Shown piece by piece: positions 14,926 to 63,339 of a stretch of 64,000 bases of DNA. Location of the stretch: assembly GCA_013375355.1 (NCBI GenBank), contig JABXJV010000421.1, forward strand, positions 1 to 64,000, written 5' to 3'. The stretch is from Candidatus Helarchaeota archaeon (GTDB lineage Archaea; Asgardarchaeota; Lokiarchaeia; Helarchaeales; JABXJV01). The number at the start of each line of letters is the position of its first letter. Positions within the stretch are counted from its first letter, which is position 1. A program made the position numbers and the translations under genes. The notes under the pieces were generated by a model. That model worked only from the letters and a program-made list of their open reading frames with translations, was not told the origin of the DNA and ran no database searches.

Positions 14926-15645
14926 TTAAATTATTAAATTTTTAATTTCCAACAAATTTTCGATAATATAATCTGGTTTTTTATTCGCAGAAAATTCAAT
15001 GCTGCGATTGTGTTCTCTTTTTATTAAAATGGTATTAATTTTTGCATTTTTTCCAGCTTGAATGTCCAAATCTGTATCCCCTACAATATACATATTCTTA
15101 TTAGAAAGCTGATATTTTTCCATAAATTCAATAATAGAATCTGGTTGGGGTTTTGCTTTATATTGCTGTTCAGTGCCAAGAAGATAAATTTCATGAAAAA
15201 TTTTTTCATATGACAAATCAATTAAATCCAGCTCAAGATTTGCAATTGAAGCTGGAGTATTACTAATAATCCCTAATTTTACTTCATTATTATATTTTAA
15301 TTCGTTAATTATGCCTCTAGCATCCTCAAATAGATATATTTCTCCATTTTCAATCATTTTTTTTCTTTCAATTAAATCCTCTTCGTCGAAACGTCTCCAA
15401 AAATCATCTATATCAAAGATTACCCAGTTTCTAAGAAATTCATCAAATTTTCTTCCAGAACGCCAAAGTGTGTGAATTTCTTTTTTGGTAAGCTTTTTTT
15501 TAGTTAGGATGAAAACTACTTTGGTGATTATTACGTCCAGAACTTCAAAAAAATTCTCTGGAACATGGATGATTGTACTTCTAGAAGAAGACTTCTAGAG
15601 AATTGTACCATCCAAATCAAATAGAACTCCAACTTCCTCATTCAT
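14926..15645 (-). CDS. HAD-family phosphatase, two exons separated by a 30-nt BHB intron
   Basis: Read leftward from ATG 15645, the frame gives DLDGTI (catalytic D10 and D12) and then meets an in-frame TAG at 15597-15595. Removing 15573-15602 joins exon 1 (15645-15603) to exon 2 (15572-14926), restores DLDGTI followed by IHVPENFFEVLD, and gives 229 residues. Later HAD motifs are ISNTPAS (motif II), the KP of motif III at AKPQPDS, and VGDTDLDIQAGKNA (motif IV). The ATG overlaps the stop of the upstream gene (TAATG), implying translational coupling. The substrate is unknown. If unspliced, only 16 residues would be made. Confidence 0.8.
15573..15602 (-). other. BHB intron (30 nt) in the HAD phosphatase mRNA
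   Basis: Fold: outer helix GGATG:CATCC (exons), central 4-bp helix GTAC:GTAC, 3-nt bulges AAT and AAT, and an inner stem TCTAGAAG:CTTCTAGA plus one T-A pair with one bulged C and a TCTT loop. Cutting after the second base of each bulge gives exon ends ...GGTACAA and TCATCC... and restores frame and motif. Confidence 0.8.
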
Positions 15646-16106
15646 TATTCTACACTTTCACTAATTTCTAATAAAATTTCAACTGTTTTCATAACAAATT
15701 TAATACATTTTTCTTGCAAAATATTTAATTCAACAAGTTTCTTTCGATCCTCAGGATCCATGAGATCGCATTGGATTAGTTCATAACATATCTCACTTGC
15801 AAATTCATTTCTAAATTTTTTAATGAATTCATTGGCAAAATTATATGCTTTGCTTTTATCTTCATCAATATTTGACCTTCCATATTTTAGGTTTATTGCC
15901 AAAATTCCACCACTTACAGAACCACACACTGATCCACTTCTTCCTATTCCTCCACCAAATGCCGTGGCAAGTTTAGGTGTTATGGGTTCCATATTCCATG
16001 CTTCTTGCATTGTCATAAGAACACCCTCTGCACAGTTAAACCCTTGTTTAAAATAGAATGCTGCTTTCTTCGGGAAATCATTTTTCTGTTTTATCATTAA
16101 TATCAC
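15645..16106 (-). CDS. C_GCAxxG_C_C family protein (redox-type cysteine protein)
   Basis: A 153-residue member of the C_GCAxxG_C_C family. It has FNCAEGVL, then GGGIGRSGSVCGSVSGGILA (the GCxxG core with a glycine-rich turn), and downstream Cys residues in SEICYELIQCDL. The family is widespread in anaerobes and is thought to bind metal or take part in redox reactions, but its exact role is unknown. A start at the inner Met (MIKQ) is possible. Its TAA overlaps the ATG of the HAD phosphatase, so the two are probably co-translated. Confidence 0.8.
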   Translation of the reverse strand: MILMIKQKNDFPKKAAFYFKQGFNCAEGVLMTMQEAWNMEPITPKLATAFGGGIGRSGSVCGSVSGGILAINLKYGRSNIDEDKSKAYNFANEFIKKFRNEFASEICYELIQCDLMDPEDRKKLVELNILQEKCIKFVMKTVEILLEISESVE

Positions 16107-16180
16107 TACTTATAGAAATTAAATAAATATTACAAAAGATATTATTTCAATTAATTTCATTGGTCAATAAAAAATAAGGG

Positions 16181-16969
16181 TTGATTTGTATCAAAATAGT
16201 AGATACACATATTCATTCTATATTTAGAAGTAATGACGATTTTATTAATTTAGTAAAAAAACAAGTCACAAAAGCGATTACTGTATCATTTTATCCAATT
16301 GTACCTCTTTATTCAAATACTTTAATTGATTTATTTAGTTGGATTATTGAAGATGAACCCCGTAGAACTAAATCTACAGGAATTACTATTCATCCCGCTA
16401 TTGGTGTTCATCCTCGGTCGATACCTCAAGATCTTACAAAAGAAAATCTAAAGAAAATTCAATTAAAAATCGAGAATGCCATTGAACAGAATAAGATTGT
16501 GGCATTAGGTGAAATAGGTTTGGAGTCCGCAACACCAAAAGAAAAAGCAATTTTTGAATTTCATCTTCAAATTGCGAAAGAATTCGACTTTCCTGTAATC
16601 GTACACACTCCTAGAAGGAATAAAAAGGAGATCACAGAACAATCAATAGAATTATTATTAAAATATAAAATAGAAAAGGGTGTTCTAGACCATATAGACG
16701 AGCAAAATCTTACACTAGCTAAAAATATAAGTTTAAATTTGGGTTTAACTGTCCAAATAGGAAAATTAACTCCAGAAAATTTCTATAATATAGTTAATGA
16801 AAATGAACATGAGATTCATCGCTTTGTACTAAATACAGATATTGGAAGAGATGAGGCGGATTTGTATTCGGCTTACAAAGCAATCAATATATTAAAAAAT
16901 AAAGGAATTAGTGAAAATACAATAGATCTAATCGCATCTGGAAATGCAAAAAAGTTATTTAAGATATAA
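16181..16969 (+). CDS. TatD-related metal-dependent hydrolase
   Basis: A 262-residue TIM-barrel hydrolase of the amidohydrolase/TatD group. It has DTHIHS near the N-terminus (metal HxH), GVHPRSIP, GEIGLE (metal Glu), VIVHTPRR (metal His), a conserved DHID, and a closing NTDIGRDE. The start is TTG at 16181, just after an AAGGG stretch; no ATG lies between it and the HxH motif. TatD enzymes are nucleases, but this archaeal subgroup is not characterised. Confidence 0.75.
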   Translation: MICIKIVDTHIHSIFRSNDDFINLVKKQVTKAITVSFYPIVPLYSNTLIDLFSWIIEDEPRRTKSTGITIHPAIGVHPRSIPQDLTKENLKKIQLKIENAIEQNKIVALGEIGLESATPKEKAIFEFHLQIAKEFDFPVIVHTPRRNKKEITEQSIELLLKYKIEKGVLDHIDEQNLTLAKNISLNLGLTVQIGKLTPENFYNIVNENEHEIHRFVLNTDIGRDEADLYSAYKAINILKNKGISENTIDLIASGNAKKLFKI

Positions 16970-17009
16970 AGAGTATACAAAACCATTAATTCAAAATTTG
17001 TGATTTTTT

Positions 17010-17777
17010 ATGGAATTAACTAAAATAGATAAAATTTTTATTATTATTTTAGCTATTTTAGGTGTTCTATCTGTCTATTTTTATTTTAATCCTGAATTAG
17101 GGGCTTTTTTAAGTTTTTCTTCTTGGAAAATAGATCAGTTCTCTTTAGATGGTACATTATTGATTGTTTTTATTGTTTGTCTAATAGGTAATTTATTACC
17201 GATTCCTACTCCTTACACTTTTATTATTATTCCTGCAGCGCTTTCTTTCCCAAATTATTTCTGGTTAGTTGGATTAATGGCTTCATTTGGAGCATTATTT
17301 GGTGAGATTGTTGGTTTTTGGGTTGGTCGGGGCACAAAAGAAGTTTTAGAACATACAGATGCAAATCTTGAAAAAATAGAAAAATGGAAACAGCTTGCAA
17401 AAGAAAGACCAAAATTCGTTATGTTTTTAATTTATCTTTTTGGTTTAACACCTTTAAATGATGATAATGTAATGATACCTTTGGGTTTAGCAGAATTTGA
17501 TTTTAAAAAGACAGTCTTTTCATGCTATCTAGGAAAACTGTCAATGATGATGTTATTTGCACTTGGTACTGTAGTTGGAGTAGACTTAATTTATAGTATG
17601 ATGGGGTATTCTCGATTTGAAATTTTAAATTATTTACCAGGAGCTTTAGGACAAGGTAATTGGTTAGAAGGTATGGTAGTATTCATTATCGTCATCATAA
17701 TAGTTTGGGGCATGCTAAAAATAGATATTAGTAGATTTCTAAAGGAAAAATATGGAGTAGAAAAATTAGAAGAATGA
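17010..17777 (+). CDS. VTT-domain (DedA-like) membrane protein
   Basis: A 255-residue membrane protein of the VTT/SNARE-associated superfamily. About six hydrophobic segments are seen. The diagnostic reentrant region reads PIPTPYTFIIIP and then GALFGEIVGFWVGRG, giving the conserved acidic residue and G-x-x-x-GR motif. DedA/VTT proteins act as lipid scramblases or undecaprenyl/phospholipid transporters. A glycerophosphodiesterase follows 14 bp downstream, pointing to lipid turnover. Confidence 0.8.
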   Translation: MELTKIDKIFIIILAILGVLSVYFYFNPELGAFLSFSSWKIDQFSLDGTLLIVFIVCLIGNLLPIPTPYTFIIIPAALSFPNYFWLVGLMASFGALFGEIVGFWVGRGTKEVLEHTDANLEKIEKWKQLAKERPKFVMFLIYLFGLTPLNDDNVMIPLGLAEFDFKKTVFSCYLGKLSMMMLFALGTVVGVDLIYSMMGYSRFEILNYLPGALGQGNWLEGMVVFIIVIIIVWGMLKIDISRFLKEKYGVEKLEE

Positions 17778-17791
17778 AATAGGCGTGGGTT

Positions 17792-18496
17792 TTGAAAAAT
17801 TTTACAATCATAGCTCATAGAGGAGCCAGTGGATATAAATTTGAAAATTCTATTTCGGCTTTTAAAATGGCTATCGAATTAAAGGCAAATATGATAGAAA
17901 CTGACGCTCAAATTACTAAAGATGGAGTAATTATTCTAAATCATGATAACAGTATTAAAAAAACTACAAACCAAAAGGGACTCATATCAAAATTATCACT
18001 AGATGAACTTAAAAAAATTCCATTAAAAAATGGGGAATCAATGCCCACTTATCAAGAACTTCTAGATATAAGTAAAGGTAATATAGAAATTAATTTAGAA
18101 ATAAAAGCTCGAAGAGTCGAGAAACTAGTTACAGATATTACTCTAAAGAATGATATGCTAGAAAAAGTTGTGTTTTCATCTTTTTCACTGAAAACTCTTA
18201 AAACGATTAGGGAATATAATAATGATGCTAGACTAGCATATTTAATAATTATACAAGGTTCTTTTATCGCTAGACTTAATTATTGGATGAAAAAAATAAC
18301 TGAGCTAAATGTTGAAAGTATTAATCCCTTTCATATGTTCGTTTCTTCAAAACTTGTAAAAGAAGCTCACAAACATAAAATTCTGATATATCCCTGGACA
18401 ATTAATGATGCAATTAAAATTCGAAATTTAATAGAAGAAAAAAATATAGATGGTGTATTTACAGACTATCCTGATATTTTAAAGAAATTTATGTAG
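17792..18496 (+). CDS. Glycerophosphodiester phosphodiesterase
   Basis: A 234-residue GDPD-family TIM-barrel enzyme that hydrolyses glycerophosphodiesters to glycerol phosphate and an alcohol. Motifs are IAHRGASG with FENS (catalytic HR), ETDAQITKDGVIILNHD (metal-binding E-x-D and catalytic His), LEIKA, and the C-terminal YPWTIND and DGVFTDYPD. The start is TTG at 17792. With the VTT protein just upstream, it may recycle membrane lipid headgroups. Confidence 0.88.
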   Translation: MKNFTIIAHRGASGYKFENSISAFKMAIELKANMIETDAQITKDGVIILNHDNSIKKTTNQKGLISKLSLDELKKIPLKNGESMPTYQELLDISKGNIEINLEIKARRVEKLVTDITLKNDMLEKVVFSSFSLKTLKTIREYNNDARLAYLIIIQGSFIARLNYWMKKITELNVESINPFHMFVSSKLVKEAHKHKILIYPWTINDAIKIRNLIEEKNIDGVFTDYPDILKKFM

Positions 18497-18564
18497 AAAA
18501 AATAGCTATTTCTAAATGATTCTAAACGATTAATTGTTAAAAATTAGATGTGTCTTGATAATAA

Positions 18565-20061
18565 ATGAAAAAAAATGGTTATGATGTTATTGTAATCGGA
18601 TCTGGGATTGGCGGATCTGCTTGTGCAGCACTTCTTTCACATGCTGGATTTAAAACCTTAGTTTTAGAAAAAAATGATAGAATTGGTGGCTTTACTTCAT
18701 GTTATGAAAAACACGGTTTTACAATAGATATTTCAATTCATGTTTTTTCAAATGGTATAAATGGTCGATTTGGAAAAATTTTACACCGAATTGGTTTAGC
18801 TACAAAACAAAAGGGTAAAATATATAGTGATTACCTGAAATTTGTTCCAAATTTAGAAAGGAGAACTGCAATTAGAATGCCTAATCAAAAAAATTATATT
18901 TCTATGGGATCTATGCTAAATACTCAAAGACAGTTAACACTTGGAACAGATTCTGATAATATACAAAAAACTGTGTCCGATATGGGAATGAAGAAAGACA
19001 ATGTAGATACTCTAATGAAAATTTTTATGACCATATTGGGTCTTACTAAAAGAAAAATCAGAAAATTAGAAGAGCAACAACTAACTTTAAGAAATTATAT
19101 TGATTCCTTTACGAAAAGTCCATTTGTTCATAGTTTTCTTGCTTTTACAGTCGGTGGAATGTTCGCAATTTCTCCAAGAAGAGCTAGTGCAGCAGAATTT
19201 GTTAGAGGTATTCAAGAATGGTTTGGCTCTAATGATATGTCATATCCCATAGGGGGCAGTATTGCTGTCCCACTAGCATTCCTTGAAGGGTTTAAGAAAT
19301 ATGGCGGAGATATTAGAACCAAATCACCAGTTTCAGAAATTGTTATTGAGAATAACAGAGCTAAAGGTGTGATGGTTAATGATGAATTTATCGAATCAAA
19401 GCTTGTTATTAGTAACACCGGAATAAAAAGAACTGTCCTTTCTCTAACTGGAGAAAAATTTTACGATAATAATTATGTCAACAAAATTAAATCCTTAGTG
19501 CCCTCTAATTCTTCAATAACCTTTAAATTTGCTTTAAATAAACAAATAATCCCCAAGGAGTTTGGAATGGTAAATATATTCCATAAAAATTTATTAAATT
19601 CAAGTGAAAAATCAAATGATGGTGCCACTAGGTCTACTGGTTTTATGACTATGATTCCCTCAAATCTAGATCCAAATTTAGCTCCTCCAGGAAAGCAATT
19701 AATAATTTTTGGAACTTTAGCTCCAGCGAAAGGAGTTGCCGATTGGAAAAAATGGACTGATATGCATTATCAAGAAATTCTACAAAATTACCCAGAAATT
19801 GAGGAAAATATCATTTTTGTGGATATTACTACACCATTAGATTTGGCTAACCTTTCAGGGAAAAAATATGGTCCTATAGAATCTACTGCCTTAATCCCAT
19901 CACAATCAGGCCCTAACAGAATATCCTCAGAATTGCCAATTGAGGGGCTTTATGTTGTCGGGGATAGTGCCGGAACTAATACTCATGGGATTGGAACACA
20001 ACTCGCAGCAGATAGTGCTATAAAGTGTGCAGATTTAATTATTTCAAAATATAAGTCATAA
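18565..20061 (+). CDS. Phytoene desaturase/retinol saturase-like FAD-dependent oxidoreductase
   Basis: A 498-residue flavoprotein. The N-terminal Rossmann motif is VIVIGSGIGGSACAALL, followed by LEKNDRIGGFTSCYEKHGF, typical of the CrtI/CrtISO group. The C-terminal FAD-binding end reads GLYVVGDSAGTNTHGIGTQLAADSA. The family desaturates, saturates or isomerises polyprenoids, so a carotenoid or isoprenoid lipid is a likely substrate, but none is proven. It lies 69 bp after the lipid-related pair. Confidence 0.8.
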   Translation: MKKNGYDVIVIGSGIGGSACAALLSHAGFKTLVLEKNDRIGGFTSCYEKHGFTIDISIHVFSNGINGRFGKILHRIGLATKQKGKIYSDYLKFVPNLERRTAIRMPNQKNYISMGSMLNTQRQLTLGTDSDNIQKTVSDMGMKKDNVDTLMKIFMTILGLTKRKIRKLEEQQLTLRNYIDSFTKSPFVHSFLAFTVGGMFAISPRRASAAEFVRGIQEWFGSNDMSYPIGGSIAVPLAFLEGFKKYGGDIRTKSPVSEIVIENNRAKGVMVNDEFIESKLVISNTGIKRTVLSLTGEKFYDNNYVNKIKSLVPSNSSITFKFALNKQIIPKEFGMVNIFHKNLLNSSEKSNDGATRSTGFMTMIPSNLDPNLAPPGKQLIIFGTLAPAKGVADWKKWTDMHYQEILQNYPEIEENIIFVDITTPLDLANLSGKKYGPIESTALIPSQSGPNRISSELPIEGLYVVGDSAGTNTHGIGTQLAADSAIKCADLIISKYKS

Positions 20062-20180
20062 AATTTTTTTTTTAAATTTCAGATCAAAATTTGTGGGGTT
20101 TAAATACTGATCTAAGAGTAAGACAGTAATCTGAAAAAAGAGTGAGAGTATGCCGAAAGTATTAGGATTTGATAAAATTG

Positions 20181-20408
20181 ATGTTACCTTGTTTTAAATG
20201 TAAAAAATGCGACACGAATTGGATTATTGATATTTATTCAGATTCCAAAGAAGGCATTATTCAAAAATTCATGAGTCAAATGTGTTGTCCAATTTGTGGA
20301 AAAAGAGATTTAAGAGTTTGCTTTATTCAAAAATTACAAGATAAAATTCCTGATATAATTCAAGAATCAATTAATGATTATGATGAAATATCTCAGTCCC
20401 TAATTTAA
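20181..20408 (+). CDS. Small zinc-ribbon protein, start uncertain
   Basis: About 75 residues from ATG 20181; a TTG at 20169 is also in frame. CFKCKKC near the N-terminus and CCPICGKRDLRVC further on give a four-cysteine zinc ribbon. Upstream, an ATG at 20150 with a good Shine-Dalgarno-like GTGAG opens another frame (MPKVLGFDKIDVTLF, then stop) that would run straight into KCKKC if one T of the TTTT at about 20192-20195 were removed. So this may be a longer gene with a one-base frameshift or sequence error. The function is unknown. Confidence 0.6.
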   Translation: MLPCFKCKKCDTNWIIDIYSDSKEGIIQKFMSQMCCPICGKRDLRVCFIQKLQDKIPDIIQESINDYDEISQSLI

Positions 20409-20436
20409 ATACTTTGAAATTTTGTTCATTTATTAA

Positions 20437-20727: not shown

Positions 20728-20894
20728 CTCATTTATATTGCTAATATTACCAAAATTGTCATTTTAATTTATAATATAATATTCGTTTAATTTTTAATAA
20801 ATTAACTTCATATTATCCTTAAAAATAAAAATAATTTATTTTCACTATAAAGAATTAAAGTCCTACGATTTTTTAATAAGAGGAGAAATTAATT

Positions 20895-22415: not shown

Positions 22416-22440
22416 CATTTTTTCTTGTTTTTATTTAACT

Positions 22441-26785: not shown

Positions 26786-28540
26786 TTAATTTCTTCGTTT
26801 GAACTTTTTTTCTAGAAAAGGTTTGTTGAAAGAAATTATTGTAGGTCTACCATGAGGACAAGAAAATGGATCATCACAATTTTTTAAATTATTAATTAAC
26901 TGTTCTATTCTTTTTTGTGATAAAGCTTGTCCCGCGCGTATAGAAGAATGACAAGCCATACTTTTAAAAATTAAATCTTGAATTTGACTATGGAACTCGT
27001 CTTTTCCAATATTTAAATCATCTAAGAATTCGGTTATTACTTTTTGATTTAAAATTTTTCCAAAAACCACAGGAACGCTTCTAATTATAAAAGTATTTCC
27101 TCCAAAATGTTTAATATCAAAACCGAAACTTGTTAATGTTTCTAAATTTTTAGAGTTTTGTAAAAAGATAGCTTCTTTTTGAGGAACATCAAAAGTTATA
27201 GGTTTTAATAAGATTTGAGATTTTGTAAATTTGCCAAAATTTTTTACTATTTTTTCATATTGTACTCGTTCTGCAGCTGCATGTTGGTCTATAAGATATA
27301 AGTTTTCATCATCTTGTGTGGCGATATAAGTGTTATGAAATTGTCCTATTAAATACATAGAAGGAAAATCAGTTTTTTTGGAGGTAATAATTGTACGAGC
27401 TTTAGTTTTTTCTAAGACTTGATCACTTTGAATCAATGAGTCTAGAGTTTTAGCCTTCGAAAAATATGATTTAGATTCTGCTAATTTTCTTTTTTTTGGC
27501 TTTGGTGTTTTTTCCACAGGAATAATTTTGGATTTCTGCAATTTTTGAGATATTACATCATAGACCGATTGATAGATTAGGTCCTCATTCAAAAATCTAA
27601 TTTCTTTTTTTGTGGGATGAATATTAACATCTATTTGTTCAGGATTAATAAGAATTGAGAGGATTACAATTGGGTGGCGTTTTTTTGGAATTAAATTACC
27701 ATATGCATCCTCAACCGCTCTACTAACTAAATTAGACCTAATAGTTCGATTGTTAACATAAATAGCTTGATAATCTCGATTTATTTTTGAAATTGTGGGT
27801 TTGCTAATAAATCCATAAATTTGAAATTCATTTTCAAATTTAATAGGAATCATTTCTTTAGCTATTTCTTTGCCGTAAATATAGGCAATATTTTCTAGAT
27901 AAGACAAATTAGTTATTTTTTCTGAGCTTTTAGGAGAAAATAAAATATTTTTATTGTTATGAAACAGATTAAATGAAATGGAAGGAAAGATTAATGCGTA
28001 TTTACTAATCACATCTATAATATGGTTTAATTCGGTTTCAGTTGATTTTAAATATTTTCTCCTTGCTGGTAAATTAAAAAATAAATTCTTAACAAAAATA
28101 GTCGTGCCTGTATTACATCCAATTTCATTAATTTCTTCAATATTTCCTGCTTTTATTCCAATTTTTATACCAACATCCTGGTCCTCGGTTTTTGTAATTA
28201 TTTCAAGTAAAGAAACAGCCGCAATGCTTGAAAGAGCTTCTCCTCTAAAGCCAAAAGTCGTTAAAGATTTTAAATCCGAAATATCTTCAATTTTACTTGT
28301 AGCATATCTTTCAAATGATAAAACAGCATCATCTTTGGTCATTCCTTCTCCATCATCAACAATCTCGATTAATTTTTTTCCCCCTTCAGTTATTTTAACT
28401 ACGATGGATGTTGCACCTGCATCAATTGAATTTTCAATTAATTCCTTAACAACAGATGCAGGTCTTTCAATGACTTCTCCTGCAGCAATTTTATTTCTTA
28501 AATTTTCATCCAAGATATGAATTTTTTTGCCCATAATCAA
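26786..28540 (-). CDS. mutL: DNA mismatch repair protein MutL
   Basis: A 584-residue mismatch-repair ATPase/endonuclease. The GHKL ATPase N-terminus shows IAAGEVIERPASVVKELIENSIDAG, DDGEGM and FGFRGEALSSI. The C-terminal endonuclease motif DQHAAAERVQYE begins at D418, and ACHSSIRAGQAL and CPHGRP complete the metal site, so this is a nicking MutL like those of bacteria lacking MutH. The adjacent Met3 is an alternative start. It follows mutS by 19 bp on the same strand, forming an operon. Confidence 0.95.
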   Translation of the reverse strand: MIMGKKIHILDENLRNKIAAGEVIERPASVVKELIENSIDAGATSIVVKITEGGKKLIEIVDDGEGMTKDDAVLSFERYATSKIEDISDLKSLTTFGFRGEALSSIAAVSLLEIITKTEDQDVGIKIGIKAGNIEEINEIGCNTGTTIFVKNLFFNLPARRKYLKSTETELNHIIDVISKYALIFPSISFNLFHNNKNILFSPKSSEKITNLSYLENIAYIYGKEIAKEMIPIKFENEFQIYGFISKPTISKINRDYQAIYVNNRTIRSNLVSRAVEDAYGNLIPKKRHPIVILSILINPEQIDVNIHPTKKEIRFLNEDLIYQSVYDVISQKLQKSKIIPVEKTPKPKKRKLAESKSYFSKAKTLDSLIQSDQVLEKTKARTIITSKKTDFPSMYLIGQFHNTYIATQDDENLYLIDQHAAAERVQYEKIVKNFGKFTKSQILLKPITFDVPQKEAIFLQNSKNLETLTSFGFDIKHFGGNTFIIRSVPVVFGKILNQKVITEFLDDLNIGKDEFHSQIQDLIFKSMACHSSIRAGQALSQKRIEQLINNLKNCDDPFSCPHGRPTIISFNKPFLEKKFKRRN

Positions 28541-28559
28541 AACTAACTCCGATTACAGT

Positions 28560-31067
28560 CTATTCAAATAATTTTTTTTGAATTTGTTTTTTTCTAGAAA
28601 TTTTATTTTTACTAGTTATTTGAGAAACTTTAGGCATAGATTTTAAATGAACTGGATCTTCTTCTTCAAGTTTATTCAAAATTTTTTTGGCACGAATAAT
28701 AACTTCATCTGGAAGCCCTGCTAACCTCGCAACTTGAATTCCAAAACTTCTATCCGAACCTCCTCTCTTGATTTTTCTTAAAAATATTATTTCATCTCCA
28801 CGTTCTTTTATTGATATATGATAATTCACTACACGAGACATATAATTCTCTAATTCACAGAGTTGATGATAATGTGTAGCAAATAATGTTTTACATTTTA
28901 GATTATCATGAATGTATTCCACAACGGCCCAAGCAATACTTAATCCATCAAAAGTTGCAGTACCTCTTCCGAGTTCATCTAAAATTACGAGGCTTTTATC
29001 AGTGGCATTATTTAAAATATTTGCAGTTTCATTCATTTCAACCATAAAGGTACTTCTCATTTTGGTAATTTCATCAAATGCTCCGATTCTAGAAAAAATA
29101 CGATCTACTACACTAATTTTTCCAGAAGTTGCCGGAATAAAACATCCAATTTGTGCCAATATTAGGATTAAAGCTACTTGTCGAATATAAGTACTTTTTC
29201 CAGCCATATTAGGGCCAGTTAAAATAATAATACATTCTTTTTTATCCAAATAAACATCATTGGGTATAAATTGTTCGTGTTCTAATAATTTTTCTACAAC
29301 AGGATGTCGTCCATCTTTGATATCAATTATTAAATTATCATTATTGGAAATTTCAGGTTTAATATAATTATTTTTTTTACTTACTTCAGCAAAAGTGCTA
29401 ATTAAATCTAAAAATGCAATTTTTTTAGATAATTCCTGAATATCGTCTGTCTTTTTCATTATTTCATATCGAATTTCTTGAAAAAGTTCATATTCAATAT
29501 TCTTAATTTTCTCATCTGCGGATAAAATTTTAAGCTCTAACTCTTTCAATTCAGGAATTATGTATCTTTCAACATTTTTTAAAGTCTGTTTTCTAATGTA
29601 TCTTTTAGGGACTAACTTAATGTTTGTTTTTGTAATTTCAATGTAATAGCCGATGGTTTTGCTATATTTGATCCTTAAGTTTTTTATTCCTGTATTAATT
29701 TTTTCTTTATTCTCAAGATCTAAAATCCAATCTTTGCTACTTTTTGAAATTTTTCTTAATTCATCCAACTCTGTATTATAACCCGATTTAATAAACCCTC
29801 CTTCCTTAATAGATGTAGGGGGGTCATCTTTAATTGATTGATCTATTAATTCAATAATTTCTGGAAAGGATTTAAGATTATTTATGATATCCTTTACAAG
29901 AGGAGCGTGTTCTAAATTTAATTCGTTTAATAGAGGGATAAGCCCTAAAGATTTTTTTAAGATAACTAAATCCCGTGCATTAGCACTACCATAGTTGATT
30001 TTAGTTAATAACCTTTCAATATCTTGAAAATTTTGTAATATTTCTCTTAAATCATTTCTTGCAAATACAGATTTGTATAATTCATCAACATAATTTAAAC
30101 GTTGTTTAATATCTTGAATTTTTAAGAGCGGTTGTTGTATCCAGCGACGTAATAATCTTCCTCCCATGCTAGTAACAGTCTGGTCTAAAATTTCTATTAA
30201 AGTACCTGTGTGAGAACTATCAGTGAGATTCTGAAAAACTTCTAAATTTTTCAAAGTTGATGAATCAAGAATCATATAATTGGAAGAATTAAATAATGAC
30301 AATTTGCGTATGTTAGAAATTTGAGCCTTTTGAGTTTCTTTTAAATATTCTAGGGCCGCTCCGGCAGCCATAATAGAGATTTTTAATTTTTCAATGCCAA
30401 AACTTTCCAATGAAAGTATTTTAAAATGCTTAGTTAATCCTTCGTAAGCATTTTGATAATAAAAATGATAGTTTTCAAAAGGACTAATATACAAATCACG
30501 AAATTCTGCTTCAATTTTTTGTAAAAATTCTTTATTTTCATATAGAGATACAGGAAGTATGCATTCAGAGGGATTAAACTGCGAAATTAAATTTAAAAGA
30601 GAAGCTTCGGCTTCTTTTTCTACAATTACACTAACATTAAATTCACCTGTAGATATGTCAACGAACGCAATACCAATTTTTTGACCTTCTTTTACAAGGC
30701 TCATCAAAAAATTATTATTTTTATGGTGTAATAAATAATCATCAGTAATAGTTCCGGGGGTAACTATTTTTATAACATCTCTTTTTACCAATTTTCCTGG
30801 AACTGGATCTTCCAATTGTTCACAAATTGCTACTTTATGTCCCTTTTTAACTAATACTGGTAAATATTTATTCAATGTATGATAGGGGATTCCTGCTAAT
30901 GGATTACCTCCCCTACGAGTTAAAACAATTCCCAATTCTTTTGAAAGAATTTCTGCATCTTGATCAAAGCTTTCATAAAAATCCCCTAGTCTATATAGTA
31001 AAATACAGTTTTTATATCTCTTTTTTATTTTATAATACTGTTCCATCATGGGCGTTAATTTAACCAT
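28560..31067 (-). CDS. mutS: DNA mismatch repair protein MutS (MutS1 type)
   Basis: An 835-residue mismatch-recognition ATPase. The N-terminal mismatch-binding Phe-x-Glu is in RLGDFYESF, the connector, lever and clamp domains follow, and the ATPase has GPNMAGKST (G618 on), the DELGRGT-type motif ILDELGRGTATFDG, and FATHYHQL. This complete MutS1 architecture is bacterial-like and rare among archaea, so the mutS-mutL operon was probably acquired from bacteria at some time; base composition matches its neighbours, so not recently. Confidence 0.96.
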   Translation of the reverse strand: MVKLTPMMEQYYKIKKRYKNCILLYRLGDFYESFDQDAEILSKELGIVLTRRGGNPLAGIPYHTLNKYLPVLVKKGHKVAICEQLEDPVPGKLVKRDVIKIVTPGTITDDYLLHHKNNNFLMSLVKEGQKIGIAFVDISTGEFNVSVIVEKEAEASLLNLISQFNPSECILPVSLYENKEFLQKIEAEFRDLYISPFENYHFYYQNAYEGLTKHFKILSLESFGIEKLKISIMAAGAALEYLKETQKAQISNIRKLSLFNSSNYMILDSSTLKNLEVFQNLTDSSHTGTLIEILDQTVTSMGGRLLRRWIQQPLLKIQDIKQRLNYVDELYKSVFARNDLREILQNFQDIERLLTKINYGSANARDLVILKKSLGLIPLLNELNLEHAPLVKDIINNLKSFPEIIELIDQSIKDDPPTSIKEGGFIKSGYNTELDELRKISKSSKDWILDLENKEKINTGIKNLRIKYSKTIGYYIEITKTNIKLVPKRYIRKQTLKNVERYIIPELKELELKILSADEKIKNIEYELFQEIRYEIMKKTDDIQELSKKIAFLDLISTFAEVSKKNNYIKPEISNNDNLIIDIKDGRHPVVEKLLEHEQFIPNDVYLDKKECIIILTGPNMAGKSTYIRQVALILILAQIGCFIPATSGKISVVDRIFSRIGAFDEITKMRSTFMVEMNETANILNNATDKSLVILDELGRGTATFDGLSIAWAVVEYIHDNLKCKTLFATHYHQLCELENYMSRVVNYHISIKERGDEIIFLRKIKRGGSDRSFGIQVARLAGLPDEVIIRAKKILNKLEEEDPVHLKSMPKVSQITSKNKISRKKQIQKKLFE

Positions 31068-31154: not shown

Positions 31155-31266
31155 TGGTGCGGGAGCTGGGAATTTCAGGAATATTAAAATATCCCATTTG
31201 AACCCAGGAAGGCCTTCGCACATAGGGACCTGAACCCTACTCCTTTGACCACTTGGATACTCCCGC
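31155..31266 (-). tRNA. tRNA-Leu (CAG) with a 25-nt T-loop intron
   Basis: Acceptor GCGGGAG:CTCCCGC, discriminator A and encoded CCA (31155-31157). The anticodon arm is TAGGG-TTCAGGT-CCCTA, giving CAG (Leu), with a long variable arm. The T-arm CTGGG:CCCAG encloses 32 nt instead of 7. The extra 25 nt (31172-31196) fold as a BHB: central TTCA:TGAA, bulges AAT and ATT, and an inner stem GGGATATT:AATATTCC. Splicing leaves the T-loop TTCAAAT (intron at 59/60). Confidence 0.9.
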
Positions 31267-31272: not shown

Positions 31273-32742
31273 TTAATTATTTTCAACAGTCTTTTTCAAT
31301 TCATACAGTTTTTCAAATGCAATATCTTTTAATTTTTTACTTAAATAATTTTCTTCGAATACCCTGTCTAGTTTTTCTTCATCTAAAATTTGGATTTCAC
31401 CATCTACTCGTTTTACCAAATCTATTTCTAAATCTACGTATTGTAATCTAAAAGGGTTTATATATAATTCAATTGGTGTATTAATATTCCAATAATTTCC
31501 TTTACTTTGATGGTTTTTTGAGAAATATTCAGTTTTTATGAACCAATCACCAAAATGACAGTCAAGAATTGCATAATCTCCAGCTTCTTTAATTGCTCCA
31601 ATGCCATTATAATATGATTTGCCCCTTCCTCCCAATTCGCGTCTTAATTTAATTATGCCATTATTTTTATCGAAAGAAATTACATGACCTGGAGATAGAA
31701 AGAAAATTCTCCCGTCTATCTTAACATGGTAAATTTTTACTAGATCATTTTCATTTGGAAAAAATTGTTTGAAATAATTTTGAGTTTCTTGAATTATTTT
31801 ATCTTTATTTTGAGGAATTTTATGAATTAATTCTTCAGCAAAATTGATAAGAAATGAAAAATTTTCTCCAAAAATCTTGTAATAATGATGATATGGAATT
31901 GTTGAGATATTTTCTATCTCACTTCTAATGTTATCCAATTGAGATTTCGTTATTGAGGGAAATTCGGCATTAAAAGTAGGAGTCCCCTCATAAACCACAC
32001 CAGGTGATTCTAACTCTCTGAATTTTTTTAAAATAAGATTTGAAGTTTCTGTTAATCTGTCTATTTCTTCTATTAATATATTTTCATTTTCTTGAATTAT
32101 ATCAGCTGCATTTGTACGCCATAAAATACCCCAATATCGAGGTTTTAAAGAATATGCTAGTTCCATTAAATCGTGTCTTATATTTTGGTCAAAAATTTTT
32201 TTACTAATTTTATTTGGACTATTTTGAATTAATATCGCAGTAATCCCTGGAATGGTAATATTAGTAGATAAGATTGCCTTCCTTCTTCCTATATTTGGGT
32301 GTTGAACTTTGGTCATTAGAAATTTTCCAATGGGAAATATTTTATTTTCTATAATACCTTTGAAATTTCCAAAATCTACCATTGTTGATTGATTAAATTT
32401 ATTTACACCTATAACTTTTCCCTTTAGTATTGTGTCCTTACCTGAAATTGACTTTCGTATTATAACATCCAGAAAATTCTCCTTTAAAATATTAATAAAT
32501 TCATCAATAGCTTCTTGTTTACCCCAACATAAAATACCTTGTCTATTCCAAGTATTTTGAATGCTTAAATCGGGATCCTCAGGAAATACATTTAAAGATA
32601 ACCTTTCTCTTACCAAATCCGAACTTTGGGTCACTTTAAAATTATTATCTAATAGAAATTTAGTTAATGCAGTTGAGTAAATCCCTCTACATCGAATTGA
32701 AAATTTAGGCTCAGAATCAGCCTCTGGTTCAGAATTAGACAA
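31273..32742 (-). CDS. FAU-1-type RNA-binding protein / ribonuclease (RNase E/G-related)
   Basis: A 489-residue homolog of archaeal FAU-1, which binds AU-rich RNA and matures the 5S rRNA 5' end. The N-terminal two thirds carry the RNase E/G-like segment with an S1-like stretch (GKVIGVNKFNQSTMVDFG...GIIE) and IGRRKAILSTNITIPG. The C-terminal DUF402 domain shows YYNGIG, ILDCHFGDWF and the family end PFRLQYVDLEIDLVKRVDGEIQILDEEKLD. Length matches the family. It lies head-to-tail with the TPR-Rab gene (52-bp gap) and next to tRNA-Leu. Confidence 0.87.
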   Translation of the reverse strand: MSNSEPEADSEPKFSIRCRGIYSTALTKFLLDNNFKVTQSSDLVRERLSLNVFPEDPDLSIQNTWNRQGILCWGKQEAIDEFINILKENFLDVIIRKSISGKDTILKGKVIGVNKFNQSTMVDFGNFKGIIENKIFPIGKFLMTKVQHPNIGRRKAILSTNITIPGITAILIQNSPNKISKKIFDQNIRHDLMELAYSLKPRYWGILWRTNAADIIQENENILIEEIDRLTETSNLILKKFRELESPGVVYEGTPTFNAEFPSITKSQLDNIRSEIENISTIPYHHYYKIFGENFSFLINFAEELIHKIPQNKDKIIQETQNYFKQFFPNENDLVKIYHVKIDGRIFFLSPGHVISFDKNNGIIKLRRELGGRGKSYYNGIGAIKEAGDYAILDCHFGDWFIKTEYFSKNHQSKGNYWNINTPIELYINPFRLQYVDLEIDLVKRVDGEIQILDEEKLDRVFEENYLSKKLKDIAFEKLYELKKTVENN

Positions 32743-43387: not shown

Positions 43388-44434
43388 ATGGTATCTAAAA
43401 AAACATTTTTTTTAACGCTCAGTGGTGAAAATATAAATTTATCTAAATTTGAAATAATTTCCCTTTTTAAATCAAAAAATACTAAATTTTTTAATGTAAA
43501 ACTAATAGATCGTCTTTTAATTATCTCATCTGAAAAAAATATTTCAAATTATATTGCTTCAAGAGCAGCCCTTACACATGATATTTCTGAATTATTAATG
43601 GTAAGTTCTATTGAAGAGCATGACATTATTGAATCCTTAAAAAGGATAGATTTAAATAAAAAAATTGAAAATAAAAAATCTTTTGCAGTAAGAATTCAAA
43701 AAATTGGACTTAAAGATATTAATTCTGAATATTTTGAAAGAATAATTGGAAGAATTATTTTTAATAAAATTAAAAAAAAGATAAGGGTTGATTTATTAAA
43801 TCCTGATATTCTATTTTATGGAGTTTTTGTTAAAAACAAATTTGTTTTTGGTATTAATAACGCACAAAAAATAAGAAGCAATTTTAAGCCAAATTCACTT
43901 AAATCTAGACCCTTTTTTCATCCAAGTGCATTAAATCCACTATTGGCTAGGGTTATGGTTAATTTATCTCAAATCAAAGAAACTGATATTTTTCTTGATC
44001 CTTTTTGTGGAACTGGAAGTATTTTAATTGAAGCTTTTTTAGTTGGATGTAATAAATTAATAGGAATAGATATTAATCATAAAATGATAAGCGGTGCGAA
44101 AAGAAATCTTATAAAAATTGGAGTAAAAAATATGGAACTATTATTAAGTGATTCTAATCATATTCCGTTAAGATCAGTATCTGGTATAGCAACCGATCCA
44201 CCGTATGGCAGGAGTAGTTCCACATATAAAAAACCACTAATTCTCTTAATAGAAAATTTCTTTTTAGAAATGAGTGATTTAATTTTAAAAAATCAGTTAA
44301 TTACATTGGCGTTGCCATCCCATATCAAGTTAGTCGAGTTGATAGATAATTTATATTTTGAAATTATAAATGAGTTTAATCAATATATACATTCTTCGTT
44401 AACTAGAAGAATATATGTAATTCAAAAAAAATGA
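43388..44434 (+). CDS. tRNA (guanine-10-N2) methyltransferase, THUMP-MTase (Trm11/TrmG10 type)
   Basis: 348 residues. The N-terminal half is a THUMP-like RNA-binding region ([13 protein letters not shown]). The C-terminal half is a Rossmann methyltransferase with [15 protein letters not shown] (SAM site) and the N2-methylation motif TDPPYGRSS. This fits the archaeal Trm-G10 enzyme, which methylates G10 of tRNA. It lies 10 bp after prs and 14 bp before the RNase Z gene, so two tRNA-processing genes are linked. Confidence 0.85.
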
Positions 44435-44448
44435 GAAATGAAATAAAT

Positions 44449-45377
44449 ATGGAAATAATTTTTTTAGGAACATCTGGGACAGTTCCAACTGTTACACGCA
44501 GTTTGCCTGCAATAATGATAAAAAGAGAAGATGATTTTTTGCTTTTTGATTGCGGTGAAAAAAACTAATTAATTGTAGTTTTCACTAAGGCACACAACTT
44601 CAATTTAGAAAAGCAAAAATCAGTTTTTTTAAGATTAATAAGATTTTTCTTTCGCATTTACATGGCGATCATATTACTGGTTTACCTGGTTTAGTGATGT
44701 CATTAGCTTTAGGTAAAAGAGAAAAAAATCTTTCAATTTATGGACCCAAGGGGATTAAAGAATTTATAAATAACGTTATTGATACAATGCATTTTGATTT
44801 AACATATCCTTTAGAAATAGTTGAAATAAACGGAGAGGAAAATTTTGAATTTTTAAATTACAAAATTACGTGTTTTCCTTTAGAACATAGGATATTTACA
44901 TTAGGATTTATTATTATTGAAAAACCAACTGCAAAATTCGATGTTGAAAAGGCCAAATCGTTAAACATTCCAAAAGGCCCTTTATGGGGAAAATTAAAAT
45001 CAGGAGAAAGTATTTATTTAAATAATGGAAGAGTTATCCAACCTTCTCAAGTTTTAGGTAATATAAAACCCGGAAAAAAAATATTATATTGTACAGATAC
45101 TCGTCCTACAATTAAGACAGAAGATTTAAGTAAGAACGCAGATTTACTAATTCATGATGGCATGTTTGAAGAAAATTTAAAGGACTTTGCTACAATTGGG
45201 GGACATTCAACAGTAGTTGAAGCAGCAAAACTAGCTAAAAATGCGAATGTAAAAAAATTAATCCTTTTCCATATAAGTTCAAGATATGAAAATAATAGTT
45301 CTATTTTAGAACTTCAAGCAAGAAATATTTTTCCTCATTCATTCATAGCTGAAGATCTTATGAGAATTTTAGTTTAA
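44449..45377 (+). CDS. rnz: Ribonuclease Z, two exons separated by a 29-nt BHB intron
   Basis: tRNA 3'-processing endonuclease of the MBL fold. Exon 1 (44449-44559) encodes [20 protein letters not shown]... to DCGE; exon 2 (44589-45377) begins GTQ and contains the metal-binding HLHGDH (60-65), DTRPT, HDGMFEE and a late HxS element (LFHISSRYE). Splicing gives 299 residues and restores the family motif DCGEGTQ. Unspliced, the frame ends in a TAA inside the intron. Neighbours are prs and a tRNA methyltransferase. Confidence 0.87.
44560..44588 (+). other. BHB intron (29 nt) in the RNase Z mRNA
   Basis: Fold: outer helix TGC:GCA (exons), central 4-bp helix GGTG:CACT with one wobble, 3-nt bulges AAA (5') and AAG (3'), inner stem AAAACTA:TAGTTTT, and an 8-nt loop. 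Cutting after base two of each bulge joins ...GGTGAA to GGCACA..., keeping frame and restoring DCGEGTQ. Confidence 0.85.
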
Positions 45378-52685: not shown

Positions 52686-52792
52686 GGGCCGGTAGATCAG
52701 CCTGGTATGATCGCCACGCTTGCAACGTGGAGATTGAAAAAATTATTAAAATCAACCATATGTCCCGGGATCGAAGCCCGGCCGGTCCACCA
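52686..52792 (+). tRNA. tRNA-Ala (TGC) with a 29-nt variable-loop intron
   Basis: Acceptor GGGCCGG:CCGGTCC, discriminator A, encoded CCA. The anticodon arm CCACG-CTTGCAA-CGTGG gives TGC (Ala). The variable region is 34 nt instead of 5. Removing 52733-52761 leaves AGGTC. Fold: central GTGG:CCAT with one wobble, bulges AGA and ATG, and inner TTGA:TCAA; the outer helix is missing, so it is a relaxed BHB. The T-arm CCGGG-ATCGAAG-CCCGG is uninterrupted. Confidence 0.9.
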
Positions 52793-52894: not shown

Positions 52895-53001
52895 GCGGGA
52901 GTGTCCGAGTTGGTCAAAGGAGCTGGGCTTAGGACCCAGTGGCGTAGGCCTGCATGGGTTCGAATGGATAAGAAATCCCGGAAAACCCATCTCCCGCACC
53001 A
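52895..53001 (+). tRNA. tRNA-Leu (TAG) with a 20-nt T-loop intron
   Basis: Acceptor GCGGGAG:CTCCCGC, A73, encoded CCA. The anticodon arm CTGGG-CTTAGGA-CCCAG gives TAG (Leu), with a long variable arm. The T-arm ATGGG:CCCAT encloses 27 nt. Intron 52965-52984 folds as a full BHB: outer ATGGG:CCCAT, central TTCG:CGGA (one wobble), bulges AAT and AAA, inner GGAT:ATCC. Splicing at 59/60 leaves TTCGAAA. Confidence 0.92.
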
Positions 53002-56583: not shown

Positions 56584-56658
56584 TAAAAATCAACTACTTT
56601 TTTTATAGATATTAATAAATTAAAAATAACGGTTTTTTGTCGAAGGAGAAATTGATTA

Positions 56659-58628: not shown

Positions 58629-58783
58629 TTTTAATCATTATAATGTTTAATTAATTTATTTTTTTACTGCCAAACGATATTTTTAATTTATAATTTTTTT
58701 CTAATATTCTAAAAGCAAAATTTTTTAAAAATTATTGATTCTTTTTTAATAACAATAAAAAATAATTATCCGTTCTATAATGA

Positions 58784-59242
58784 ATGAGGTGTTATGTAAC
58801 GACAGGTTTAAAATCACCAAAAGGCGAATTTGCAGGAAGATTATTAATTAAGAAGAGAAAAAAATTCCGTTGGAAGGATATTAGATATAAAAGAAGAAAA
58901 TTGAAGTTGAATATAAAATCAGATCCATTAGAGGGTGCTCCTCAAGCACGAGGTATCGTTCTAGAAAAAATTGGAATAGAAACAAAACAACCAAATTCAG
59001 GAATTCGTAAATGTGTTCGTATTCAACTTATTAAAAACGGAAAGCAAATAACTGCATTTCTCCCTGGTGATGGAGCATTAAATTTTATTGATGAGCATGA
59101 TGAAGTTCTAGTTGAAGGTATTGGGGGGGCGAAAGGTCGTGCTGTAGGTGATCTACCAGGCGTTAGATGGAAGGTTATTAAAGTAAATAATGTGGGGCTC
59201 GAATCTCTTTTAACAGGTAAAAAAGAAAAACCTATAAGGTAA
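58784..59242 (+). CDS. rps12: Small ribosomal subunit protein S12 (uS12)
   Basis: 152 residues, archaeal/eukaryotic S23-like S12. Conserved stretches: [58 protein letters not shown] (decoding loop), [24 protein letters not shown] and a closing KKEKPIR. The start is at ATG 58784, although an ATG 4 bp earlier is out of frame. It is separated from its usual partners S7 and EF-1A, which are not in the window. Confidence 0.95.
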
Positions 59243-59257
59243 ATTATTTAGATATTC

Positions 59258-60316
59258 TTAAATAGGAGAACCTGGCAAGTTAGTTTTTAATTGCATATTT
59301 GATATTTTTAATATAGTGGGGGCAACATCTAGAGTTGAATAAGTTCGTGATGAATAATCCGGAGGATATTTAAGTTTATAATTTTTGCTTATAATAATAA
59401 GGGGAACGTATACTTCTTCTTTTAAATATCCACCGTGACTCCCGTTTAAATTTTCCTTTTCAAATTCAATCCCCTTATTTGCAGAAATCACAATATCTCC
59501 AGTCCTTTTATGATGTAATTTAATATCCTTCGTTTGTGATTTCAGAAAAATTTTGTCAATTTCTTTTAATTGGTTGAGTTCTTCTATTATTTCTTTATTG
59601 TTCTCATTTGAGTAAATATGACATGCTCGATGAGATTCTAAGAATTGGCTTGATATTCCTTCTTTTTGAAAATAACTTTTTAAATCAAATCTTCTAGATA
59701 CCTTAGTCATACCATGGTCTGCGGTAATTATCATTATTAATTTATCGTCAATAATTTCATAGATTTTTGATAAAAAATGATCGCATTTAGATATTTCATC
59801 CAGATATTTTTTATTATCAGGACCAAATGTTTCACCATAACCATCAACTCCTGCAAAATTAATTACCCCAAATTTGATATTATAATCTCTTAATAATTTC
59901 AAAGATTTATCAAAAATTAGTTCATCCCTTTCTTCTAAGGGAATTTTATTTAATTCTTTCATAGAAAATGTATAATCTGCTCCTTTTGTTATAGGTTCTG
60001 CTACAGCCATAGTTCTTAGTGATTTAAGCATTTCAAAAAGAGTCTGGGTTTGAATATATTCAGAAGGGTCATAATAGTCAAAATGTTTTACTTTTTTATC
60101 ATTGCTATCAAAAAATTGATTACCAATCATTCCATGTTGTTCAGGAAAAGTGCCAGTTACGATTGTAGAGTGCCCGGTATAAGTTGCTGTTGGAAATACT
60201 GTCTTACAATTAAAGCTTATGAATCCTTTTTCACTTAAAGAATCTATGAATGGGGTTTGAGCTTTAATATATGAATTTATTGCACAACCGTCTAAAATAA
60301 ATAATAAAATAATCAA
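59258..60316 (-). CDS. Alkaline phosphatase-family nucleotide pyrophosphatase/phosphodiesterase
   Basis: A 352-residue type I phosphodiesterase of the alkaline-phosphatase superfamily. It has FILDGC near the N-terminus (metal Asp), VFPTATYTGHSTIVTG with the nucleophile Thr, GVDGYGE, ITADHGM (metal D-H) and a late HGGY (metal His). No clear signal peptide is seen. It probably hydrolyses phosphodiester or phosphate-ester substrates; the exact one is unknown. It converges on rps12. Confidence 0.85.
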   Translation of the reverse strand: MIILLFILDGCAINSYIKAQTPFIDSLSEKGFISFNCKTVFPTATYTGHSTIVTGTFPEQHGMIGNQFFDSNDKKVKHFDYYDPSEYIQTQTLFEMLKSLRTMAVAEPITKGADYTFSMKELNKIPLEERDELIFDKSLKLLRDYNIKFGVINFAGVDGYGETFGPDNKKYLDEISKCDHFLSKIYEIIDDKLIMIITADHGMTKVSRRFDLKSYFQKEGISSQFLESHRACHIYSNENNKEIIEELNQLKEIDKIFLKSQTKDIKLHHKRTGDIVISANKGIEFEKENLNGSHGGYLKEEVYVPLIIISKNYKLKYPPDYSSRTYSTLDVAPTILKISNMQLKTNLPGSPI

Positions 60317-60624
60317 AGAAATCCCATTTTAATATTATATTCAATTGCTGTTTTTCAAAATTTAAATAGAATTTTAGATTTTTAAATAGATTTTTTAATA
60401 GAAAAATAATTTGTAAAAGGAAAAAAAGAGAAATTTATGAAAATAATAAAAGTTCCAAAATAATTTATTGAATAAAAGAAATTATTATGAATGAAAATAT
60501 TGTTTGAGAGGATAATTTTATAATAAATTCAGCAAGAACGTTAATCTTTCAAAATTTGTGGGTATTAAATATCAAAAATTCTAATCATTTATAAAATACA
60601 ATTAAGTGAACAAGTGGATTATCG
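60317..60624. other. 308-bp noncoding gap
   Basis: AT-rich divergent promoter region between the phosphodiesterase and the LC7 gene. No ORF, strong inverted repeat or tRNA was found. Confidence 0.4.
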
Positions 60625-61002
60625 ATGTCAGTTTTAATAAAAAACTACAATATTGATAAATTAAAAGAATGTTTAGAGGATCTTAATTCAAAAAATGGAA
60701 ATAAAGGATGTATTTTATGCTCAGAAGAAGGTTTAGTTGTTATTTCAACAAAAAATGGAAACAATCAAATAGATTTTGACTCATTGGCTGCTATGGGCGC
60801 AACATTATTGAGTATTATGAATGATCAAATTTTTTTAGATATAATAATAACATATGAAAACAAAAAAGTCTTTATCCGTAAAATAAACGGAGATATTTGT
60901 AATTTTATATTCATTAATATTTTTGAATATAATAAAAGATATTTTAGGCGAGATGTAAACAAAACAATTAAAAAAATTAGTAAACTTCTAACTTCATATT
61001 AA
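60625..61002 (+). CDS. Roadblock/LC7-domain protein, second copy
   Basis: 125 residues. KLKECLEDLNSKNGNKGCILCSEEGLVVISTKNG, then DSLAAMGATLLSIMN and a strand IIITYENKKVFIRKING follow the roadblock/LC7 pattern, with a helical C-terminal end. It is related to the one at 47459-47824. Roadblock proteins partner Asgard-type GTPases; the TPR-Rab and MglA-like GTPases in this window are possible partners. Confidence 0.82.
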   Translation: MSVLIKNYNIDKLKECLEDLNSKNGNKGCILCSEEGLVVISTKNGNNQIDFDSLAAMGATLLSIMNDQIFLDIIITYENKKVFIRKINGDICNFIFINIFEYNKRYFRRDVNKTIKKISKLLTSY

Positions 61003-61012
61003 AAAATGATTT

Positions 61013-61150
61013 TGGTGCAGCTGCCGAGATTTTTGGAATAAATCTAAAATATTTAATTCTTTCGAACCCGGGTCAGAGGCTTGGGAGGCTTCCGTAAATT
61101 GATCCATAATGATCAATTTGCCCCGTCCTAACCGACTAGACTACAGCTGC
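61013..61150 (-). tRNA. tRNA-Gly (CCC) with two introns
   Basis: Acceptor GCAGCTG:CAGCTGC, A73, encoded CCA. The anticodon loop CTCCCAA with GCCTC gives CCC (Gly). The T-arm CCGGG:CTCGG holds 38 nt instead of 7: intron 61030-61060 (31 nt), with inner GAAT:ATTC extended by AAAT:ATTT, bulges AAA and AAT, and a central helix TTCG:CAAA with one mismatch. Splicing leaves TTCGAAT. A second 31-nt insertion sits near 29/30 with a 9-bp hairpin AAATTGATC:GATCAATTT; its BHB is not clean. Confidence 0.88.
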
Positions 61151-61174
61151 ATTATATTTATTTTTAAAATAATA

Positions 61175-63339
61175 CTAATTATTATTAAAAAAATCTGCTT
61201 TAGGTATTTCAGCTTTTCTACCTTTTTTAACACGAATGTCTGAAATGATTTTTTGAGCGCTATCGTAGGGAATAAATTCCCAATGAGAAAATATTGTTTG
61301 CCAAAATGCTTGGCCAGCAGTCTTTGAACGAATATCAGAAGCTAAATTAAATGATTCTTTAACTGGAATTAGACCAGTGATAAAAGAATAAGAGCTTTTT
61401 TGTTCAACATCTAAAATCTTTCCTTTCCGTTGTAATAATAAAGCTGTAATTATTCCTATTAAATCCATAGGAACTTGAATTTGAATCTTATAAATTGGTT
61501 CGAAAATGGTAGGTTCTGCTTTTAAAAAAGCGTTGTAAATTGCTCTTTTACCCATTAACATTATTTGAAGCGGATCGACTTCTAAAGTTTTTTTATCAAT
61601 TTTTAACGAATTAATATTTATTTGTAATCCTTTTATTGGCTCTTCGCATAAAGGACCTGCATTTAGAGCCATTTTAATACCTTTTATAATAATTTGTTTG
61701 ATTTTATCATCCAAATAATCTTGTTTTAAATTATTAATGATTAGATTATTATTGTAATCTATTGCTAAAATTTTCCTATGCTTCAGGATTTCTTTAATTT
61801 GGTCTTCATTTATTGGTTCTAGTGATATTTGAATTAAGTTCAAATTGTTTTGACTTTTAATTGAAATTAAGGGACTTCTTTGTTTAATTCCTTCTCTGTA
61901 TACTATAATTGGGTCGGACATTAGAATATCAATTCCTAAATTTTTCATTTCATTTGCAATAATTTCTAGATGCAATTGTCCAATTCCAGAAATCAGATAT
62001 TCCCCTGTATCTTCATTAATATTGATTTTTATATCAGGATCATTCACTTCAATTTTATTTAAGATATCCAACATTTTAGGTAATTCTTTTGGATGTTTGG
62101 GTTCAATAGAAACCGTTATAACAGGTTCCGATACATATTTTATATTTTCAAATGGGTCAATTTCATCTTTAAATTCAATTTGAGTTAAGGTTTCTCCTAC
62201 TGTTGCTTTCGAGAGACCTATAAAAGCTCCAATATTACCTGCTGTAAGAGAATTAACATTTTCTCTTTTATGTCCCATTGAAATGAAAATTTGTTGAATT
62301 CGATTATTTTCCTTTGCATTTAATAAATAAACTTCATCACCTGAATTAATAGTTCCTGAAAATATACGGCCTATTGAAATTCTTCCTACATGTTTGTCAA
62401 ATAATATCTTATGAATACAAATAATAAAAGGTCCATTTTCATTACATGCTTGCATATTACGTGCTACATATGAGTTTAGATTTCCTTTCCAAATTTTTTT
62501 AATTCTATACCTTTGGGCAATTTTTGGACTTGGTAAATGATTAATTATCATATCTAATATGCATTTATCTAAAGGTAAAATTCCACTTAAAGTCCTAATT
62601 TTTTCCATTCCATTTTTATAATAATTTAAAATATTTTCAAATTTTAGTCTCTTATTTAACATAGTATTTACGGTAAACCCCCAACTAGGATTTAGTGCAC
62701 ACCCAAATCCTACATTATTTTTTTCTGGAATTATTTTCCATTTGTCTTTAAATTCATCTTCTGCATAAATTTCAATATAATCGTTAAATTTATCAATTAT
62801 ATTTTCAAAATGTTTTTCAATTTCATGGGAATTTAATTTTAATTCTTTAATAAGACGATCAACTTTGTTTATATACAAAATTGGTTTTATACATTCTTGC
62901 AAAGCTTGTTTTGTTACAATTTCTGTCTGAATTTGACAACCTTCAACTGCATCTACAACTACAATAGCACCATCAATCGCTCTCAAAGCTCTAGATACTC
63001 TAGCTGTTAAATCCACATGGTCTATAAAAATACTATCTATTTTTATATATGACCTGGAGTATCAATTAAATTAATAATGTAATTTTTATTAGCTATTTGA
63101 TATAATAATGAAATATTTGCTGTCTTAACTGTAATTCCTCTTTTTTGTTCTATTTCTAAATAATCTAGAGCTCGAAGTGAGCCTGCCAAATTTGAAGATA
63201 TTATCTTACCCAATGCTAATAGACTATCAGTTAATGTAGTCTTTCCATGATCAATATGCGCTATAATACCAATATTACGTATGCTATCTTTTTTTTTCAT
63301 TGTTTTTAAAATTTCATTAATTTTTTTAGATTTAACCAT
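61175..63339 (-). CDS. Translation elongation factor EF-2-like GTPase, two exons separated by a 32-nt BHB intron, no diphthamide loop
   Basis: Exon 1 is 63339-63049 (97 aa), exon 2 is 63016-61175 (613 aa), 710 residues after splicing. G1 AHIDHGKT (27-34), RGITV (G2), DTPGHVD (G3, split by the intron) and NKVD (G4). All five EF-2 domains are present. The usual diphthamide motif (HxDxIHRG) is replaced: the stretch reads LEVDPLQIML, so the modified His is gone. It is probably an EF-2 paralog of the kind reported in Asgard archaea. Unspliced, it would stop soon after GH. Confidence 0.88.
63017..63048 (-). other. BHB intron (32 nt) in the EF-2 mRNA
   Basis: Canonical hBHBh': outer helix TCCA:TGGA, 3-nt bulge ATG (3' side), central 4-bp helix GGTC:GACC, 3-nt bulge ATA (5' side), a perfect 10-bp inner helix TATAAAAATA:TATTTTTATA, and a 5-nt loop. 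Cutting after base two of each bulge joins CCAGGTCAT to GTGGATTTA and restores PGHVDL. Confidence 0.9.

Follow-up and report, generated by a model that had tools for sequence, protein, structure and literature searches.

Probable bulge-helix-bulge introns in three protein-coding genes of an Asgard-type archaeal contig

Three protein-coding genes in the window (the whole 64,000-nucleotide stretch of archaeal DNA analysed here), encoding a HAD phosphatase, RNase Z, and a paralog of EF-2, are each broken by a short insert with an in-frame stop codon. These inserts are, with a probability of roughly 0.9, bulge-helix-bulge (BHB) introns that would be excised by the tRNA-splicing endonuclease, the mRNA then being ligated. 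BHB introns of 29-32 nt with one cutting register had been proposed for three mRNAs in a sequence-only reading, and both sequence and homology now support that proposal. The window has a GC content of 28% and about 52 genes; by Pfam, neighboring genes encode Ras-like GTPases, a roadblock protein, a proteasome subunit, two Cdc6-like proteins, and a CDC48-like ATPase. The parts of the three genes are as follows.

15603..15645, minus strand: HAD phosphatase exon 1, beginning MNEEVGVLFDLDGT, taken from the joined reading frame
15573..15602, minus strand: putative HAD intron, 30 nt, its sole in-frame stop one TAG, canonical BHB register
14926..15572, minus strand: HAD phosphatase exon 2, from the joined frame, with Pfam HAD_2 complete once joined
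44431..44559, plus strand: RNase Z exon 1, starting at 44431 or at an inner ATG at 44449
44560..44588, plus strand: putative RNase Z intron of 29 nt with TAA in frame; its canonical BHB register has an outer helix of 3 bp
44589..45377, plus strand: RNase Z exon 2, downstream of the 29-nt intron
63049..63339, minus strand: EF-2 paralog exon 1, last residues DTPGH
63017..63048, minus strand: putative intron of the EF-2 paralog, 32 nt with TAA in frame, minimum free energy (MFE) fold exactly the BHB
61175..63016, minus strand: EF-2 paralog exon 2, first residues VDLTARV

Excision of the inserts restores proteins of 229 (HAD), 305 (RNase Z), and 710 residues (EF-2 paralog), with the junctions DLDGT-IIHVPE, DCGE-GTQ, and DTPGH-VD, respectively. 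Domain matches are extended accordingly: the EF-2 paralog matches Pfam GTP_EFTU over positions 2-187 of 188 when joined vs. 82-187 when unjoined, HAD matches HAD_2 over 1-177 of 178 vs. 77-177, and joined RNase Z gains N-terminal lactamase and tRNase Z matches, while its alignment with chain 2cbn_A runs through LFDCGEGTQ.

At all three mRNA sites a BHB (3-nt bulge, 4-bp helix, 3-nt bulge) spans both junctions, and the sole register that gives a canonical BHB, cut after the second base of each bulge, yields the junction required by homology. Such a coincidence of a homology-fitting register with canonical cuts is rare by position count, although for HAD the chance figure is weaker than it appears because the 4-bp helix is a repeated, self-complementary GTAC. 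The BHB is the MFE fold only for the EF-2 paralog (z -3.23), and lies 1.6 and 2.3 kcal/mol above it for HAD and RNase Z, respectively; 11 of 200 shuffles of the RNase Z segment fold equally well. Across 52 gene intervals of the window, BHB-like structures were found 25 times in sense and 29 times in antisense orientation, without excess, and no further mRNA introns are therefore claimed on structure alone. A BHB covariance search by itself would face the same high background and would need frame-repair or homology evidence as well. A gap scan and Pfam scans of 50 window ORFs, which took in the three exon-2 ORFs and gave no match for 7 of the 50, showed no fourth interrupted gene; a P-type ATPase (1568-4411), a histone, and ORFs at the window edges lay outside the Pfam scans. 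Elsewhere in the window, genes for MutL and MutS, both with their Pfam domains complete, are adjacent (26786-31067), an arrangement associated with bacteria.

In the proposed mechanism, four exon bases ahead of the first bulge would pair in the pre-mRNA with four intron bases near the 3′ end of the intron; outside that helix the exons would pair together, and the intron would fold as an inner hairpin. The tRNA-splicing endonuclease (EndA) would then cut both 3-nt bulges after their second base, and the exons would be joined by an RNA ligase, presumably RtcB. Cleavage by EndA followed by ligation is the parsimonious reading, as the motif is that of EndA. A more relaxed motif in a tRNA-Ala gene of the window would call for an enzyme of broad specificity, a property ascribed to the (alpha-beta)2 and epsilon2 endonuclease types (PMC6379350). 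Splicing endonuclease and ligase genes were absent from the Pfam matches of the scanned window ORFs.

Unusual tRNA introns had also been noted beside the mRNA introns, and non-canonical introns indeed occur in three of the four tRNA genes found in the window, the exception being an intron-free tRNA-His.

31155..31266, minus strand: tRNA-Leu(CAG), T-loop intron at 31172-31196, 25 nt
52686..52792, plus strand: tRNA-Ala(TGC), intron in the variable arm, 29 nt, probably at 52733-52761, with a relaxed motif lacking an outer helix
52895..53001, plus strand: tRNA-Leu(TAG), T-loop intron at 52965-52984, 20 nt

Their cutting register is that of the three mRNA introns, and positions 45/46 and 59/60 are among the known tRNA intron sites (PMC4090602). 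ARAGORN recognized none of the three intron-bearing genes unspliced and all three after excision; since it also accepted many shifted excisions, the intron borders were taken from the motif. With cmscan (Rfam), the unspliced tRNA-Ala was detected and both tRNA-Leu genes were missed. Because T-loop introns hide the tRNA-Leu genes from both programs at the settings used, the number of tRNA genes in such genomes may be underestimated. Directly upstream of tRNA-Leu(CAG), on the same strand, lies a gene for an RNase E/G-family protein with DUF402 (31273-32742).

Translational bypassing, in which the ribosome leaves the message at a take-off codon and resumes beyond a hairpin at a landing codon that matches, is exemplified by phage T4 gene 60 and by the byp elements in the mitochondria of certain yeasts. 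The hairpins described here are of suitable size, and the take-off and landing codons match in the EF-2 paralog (CAT/CAT) and in HAD (ACA/ACA). However, bypassing elements have matching codons and those of RNase Z differ (GAA/TAA), the BHB cutting rule is obeyed at 3/3 mRNA sites, and the adjoining tRNA introns follow the same rule yet cannot be bypassed. Bypassing is thus very improbable, although it fares marginally better than the other alternatives.

Decayed genes, or errors of sequencing or assembly, would also account for broken frames in DNA known from one assembly. This is hardly credible given that exact excision restores full, conserved proteins and that, for each of the three, the closest relatives, from other contigs, are predicted as ORFs truncated at corresponding places with their downstream parts conserved. 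The relatives were compared as proteins, and truncation of an ORF locates its interruption no more closely than upstream of the start codon. Among the nearest relatives that carry names, most are Candidatus Helarchaeota, and two are Hodarchaeota (P0008 and P0241). For the EF-2 paralog, all five matches listed with 68-86% identity and extending to this region start at (M/V)DLTARV, whereas DTPGHVD is unbroken in all 113 other full EF-2 proteins among the matches listed. For RNase Z, five relatives at 71-89% identity lack the N-terminus, vs. none of 115 others among the matches listed. Such truncated ORFs are expected if the relatives' genes are likewise interrupted, and the relatives probably carry the same introns. 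Searched against genome contigs, the EF-2 exon-2 protein gave a single match, a bacterial locus at 22% identity, and a PF01974 search in the genome of that bacterium gave 0/1. Alignments of EF-2, RNase Z, and HAD against viral contigs found no relative, and an S12 search in phages gave weak matches only. The interrupted EF-2 gene (61175-63339) lacks the HRG-type diphthamide loop, which P0007 and other full-length relatives possess, and resembles the second EF-2 paralog described for archaea without diphthamide genes (PMC10307638), whereas the Hodarchaeales sampled in that study have a single canonical EF-2. On these grounds the DNA is more likely Helarchaeota-like than hodarchaeal.

Twelve homologs of HAD were found, one of which (P0247) is the window's own exon-2 ORF. 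Seven span the site and all lack the insert, six reading DLDGT(I/L)IHVPE and P0250 reading DMDGTIFAVP. The remaining four start downstream of the site, namely the three nearest (P0241, P0248, and P0251, at 84-87% identity) and the distant P0252 (49%). In a tree, the window's protein falls together with P0243, which is uninterrupted, and with P0241, P0248, and P0251 (support 80/77). This placement is consistent with a recent intron gain but no proof of one, the support being moderate. P0252, named as Helarchaeota, is truncated near the position of P0241, and the similarly distant P0250 is full-length; this truncation may reflect an older or independent interruption, or an effect of gene calling.

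Two further alternatives are about as implausible as decay or error. The halves of each protein might be translated separately and then assembled, for which the EF-2 paralog offers a GTG codon at the start of exon 2 and RNase Z an ATG a short way 3′ of the intron. However, exon 1 of HAD encodes only about 14-16 residues, the splits fall inside motifs such as DTPGHVD and DCGEGTQ, and the BHB register would be left unexplained. For HAD alone, the stop might be read through, e.g., as pyrrolysine, since the insert is 30 nt long with one TAG as its only in-frame stop, but the ten resulting residues are absent from all seven homologs that span the site, and the inserts in RNase Z and the EF-2 paralog contain TAA and change the reading frame. 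Group I and group II self-splicing introns, whose catalytic RNA cores take hundreds of bases, were rejected for inserts of 29-32 nt, and an Rfam scan of the window returned two tRNA matches only; inteins were rejected as the inserts hold stop codons and two of them have lengths that three does not divide.

The placement of the BHB introns within conserved motifs, claimed earlier from the letters alone, is supported by the conservation rank of the 8-residue window around each site, which is 3/703 for EF-2 (113 homologs), 5/298 for RNase Z (115 homologs), and 9/222 for HAD (7 homologs). A plausible explanation is that introns endure where codons cannot change, as an intron at invariant codons would last because the flanking exon bases are locked into its BHB. 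With regard to origin, the suggestion of mobile intron gain has fared unevenly. The HAD case is compatible with gain, with truncation in the three nearest relatives and in the distant P0252, seven uninterrupted homologs, and an agreeing tree of moderate support. In contrast, side-by-side reading found no sequence common to the three mRNA introns, and mobility of one element is therefore not indicated. Direct repeats accompany the introns, of 7 nt at HAD (GTACAAT, 15573-15615), 3 nt at the EF-2 paralog, and 2 nt at RNase Z, the shorter ones being those at the more widely shared introns. The 7-nt repeat, at the newest-looking intron, could be a trace of insertion, although three cases are no proof.

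A broader proposition, to which we would give even odds, is that in a Helarchaeota-like lineage between dozens and hundreds of mRNAs are routinely spliced by the tRNA-splicing endonuclease together with an RNA ligase, and that the lineage is still gaining introns, which are kept where half of the BHB consists of invariant motif codons and cannot drift. Splicing of mRNA without a spliceosome would then be an ordinary step of gene expression in an Asgard archaeon. Three introns in about 52 genes, apparently partly common to related genomes, would in themselves take endonuclease-mediated mRNA splicing beyond a curiosity, and this in relatives of the eukaryotes. Genes would be falsely listed as broken in the catalogues of such genomes, and the lineage would offer a system for studying how protein-coding introns are gained and lost, and how their sites are chosen, in the absence of a spliceosome.

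BHB introns have rarely been described for archaeal protein genes, and in coding sequences they are a one-gene case (cbf5) in the literature seen; a search that covered neither preprints nor most subscription papers found none in coding sequences of Asgard archaea. Introns are reported in 92-95% of the tRNA genes of three Asgard genomes (PMC11291895), and the motif and cutting rule of non-canonical archaeal tRNA BHB introns (PMC4090602, PMC11291895) are the same as those in the window. The intron passages of PMC11291895 concern tRNA only, to which the window adds mRNA. In Haloferax volcanii, the splicing endonuclease likewise acts on an mRNA, that of HVO_1309, at BHB sites, but there the BHB sits in the 5′ UTR (PMC7714728), whereas the window's introns sit in coding sequence. 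The same report gives crenarchaeal cbf5 as the one other archaeal mRNA BHB intron reported by 2020 (PMC7714728). The cbf5 pre-mRNA of Desulfurococcales and Sulfolobales likewise has a BHB intron in its coding sequence, cut at the exon borders by the same rule, between bulge residues 2 and 3, and its gain and loss have been described, with presence and loss being lineage-specific, as here (PMC2738675). However, cbf5 is one crenarchaeotal gene with a mostly unconventional BHB (PMC2738675), whereas the window, 64 kb of Asgard-type DNA, presents three genes other than cbf5, with canonical geometry.
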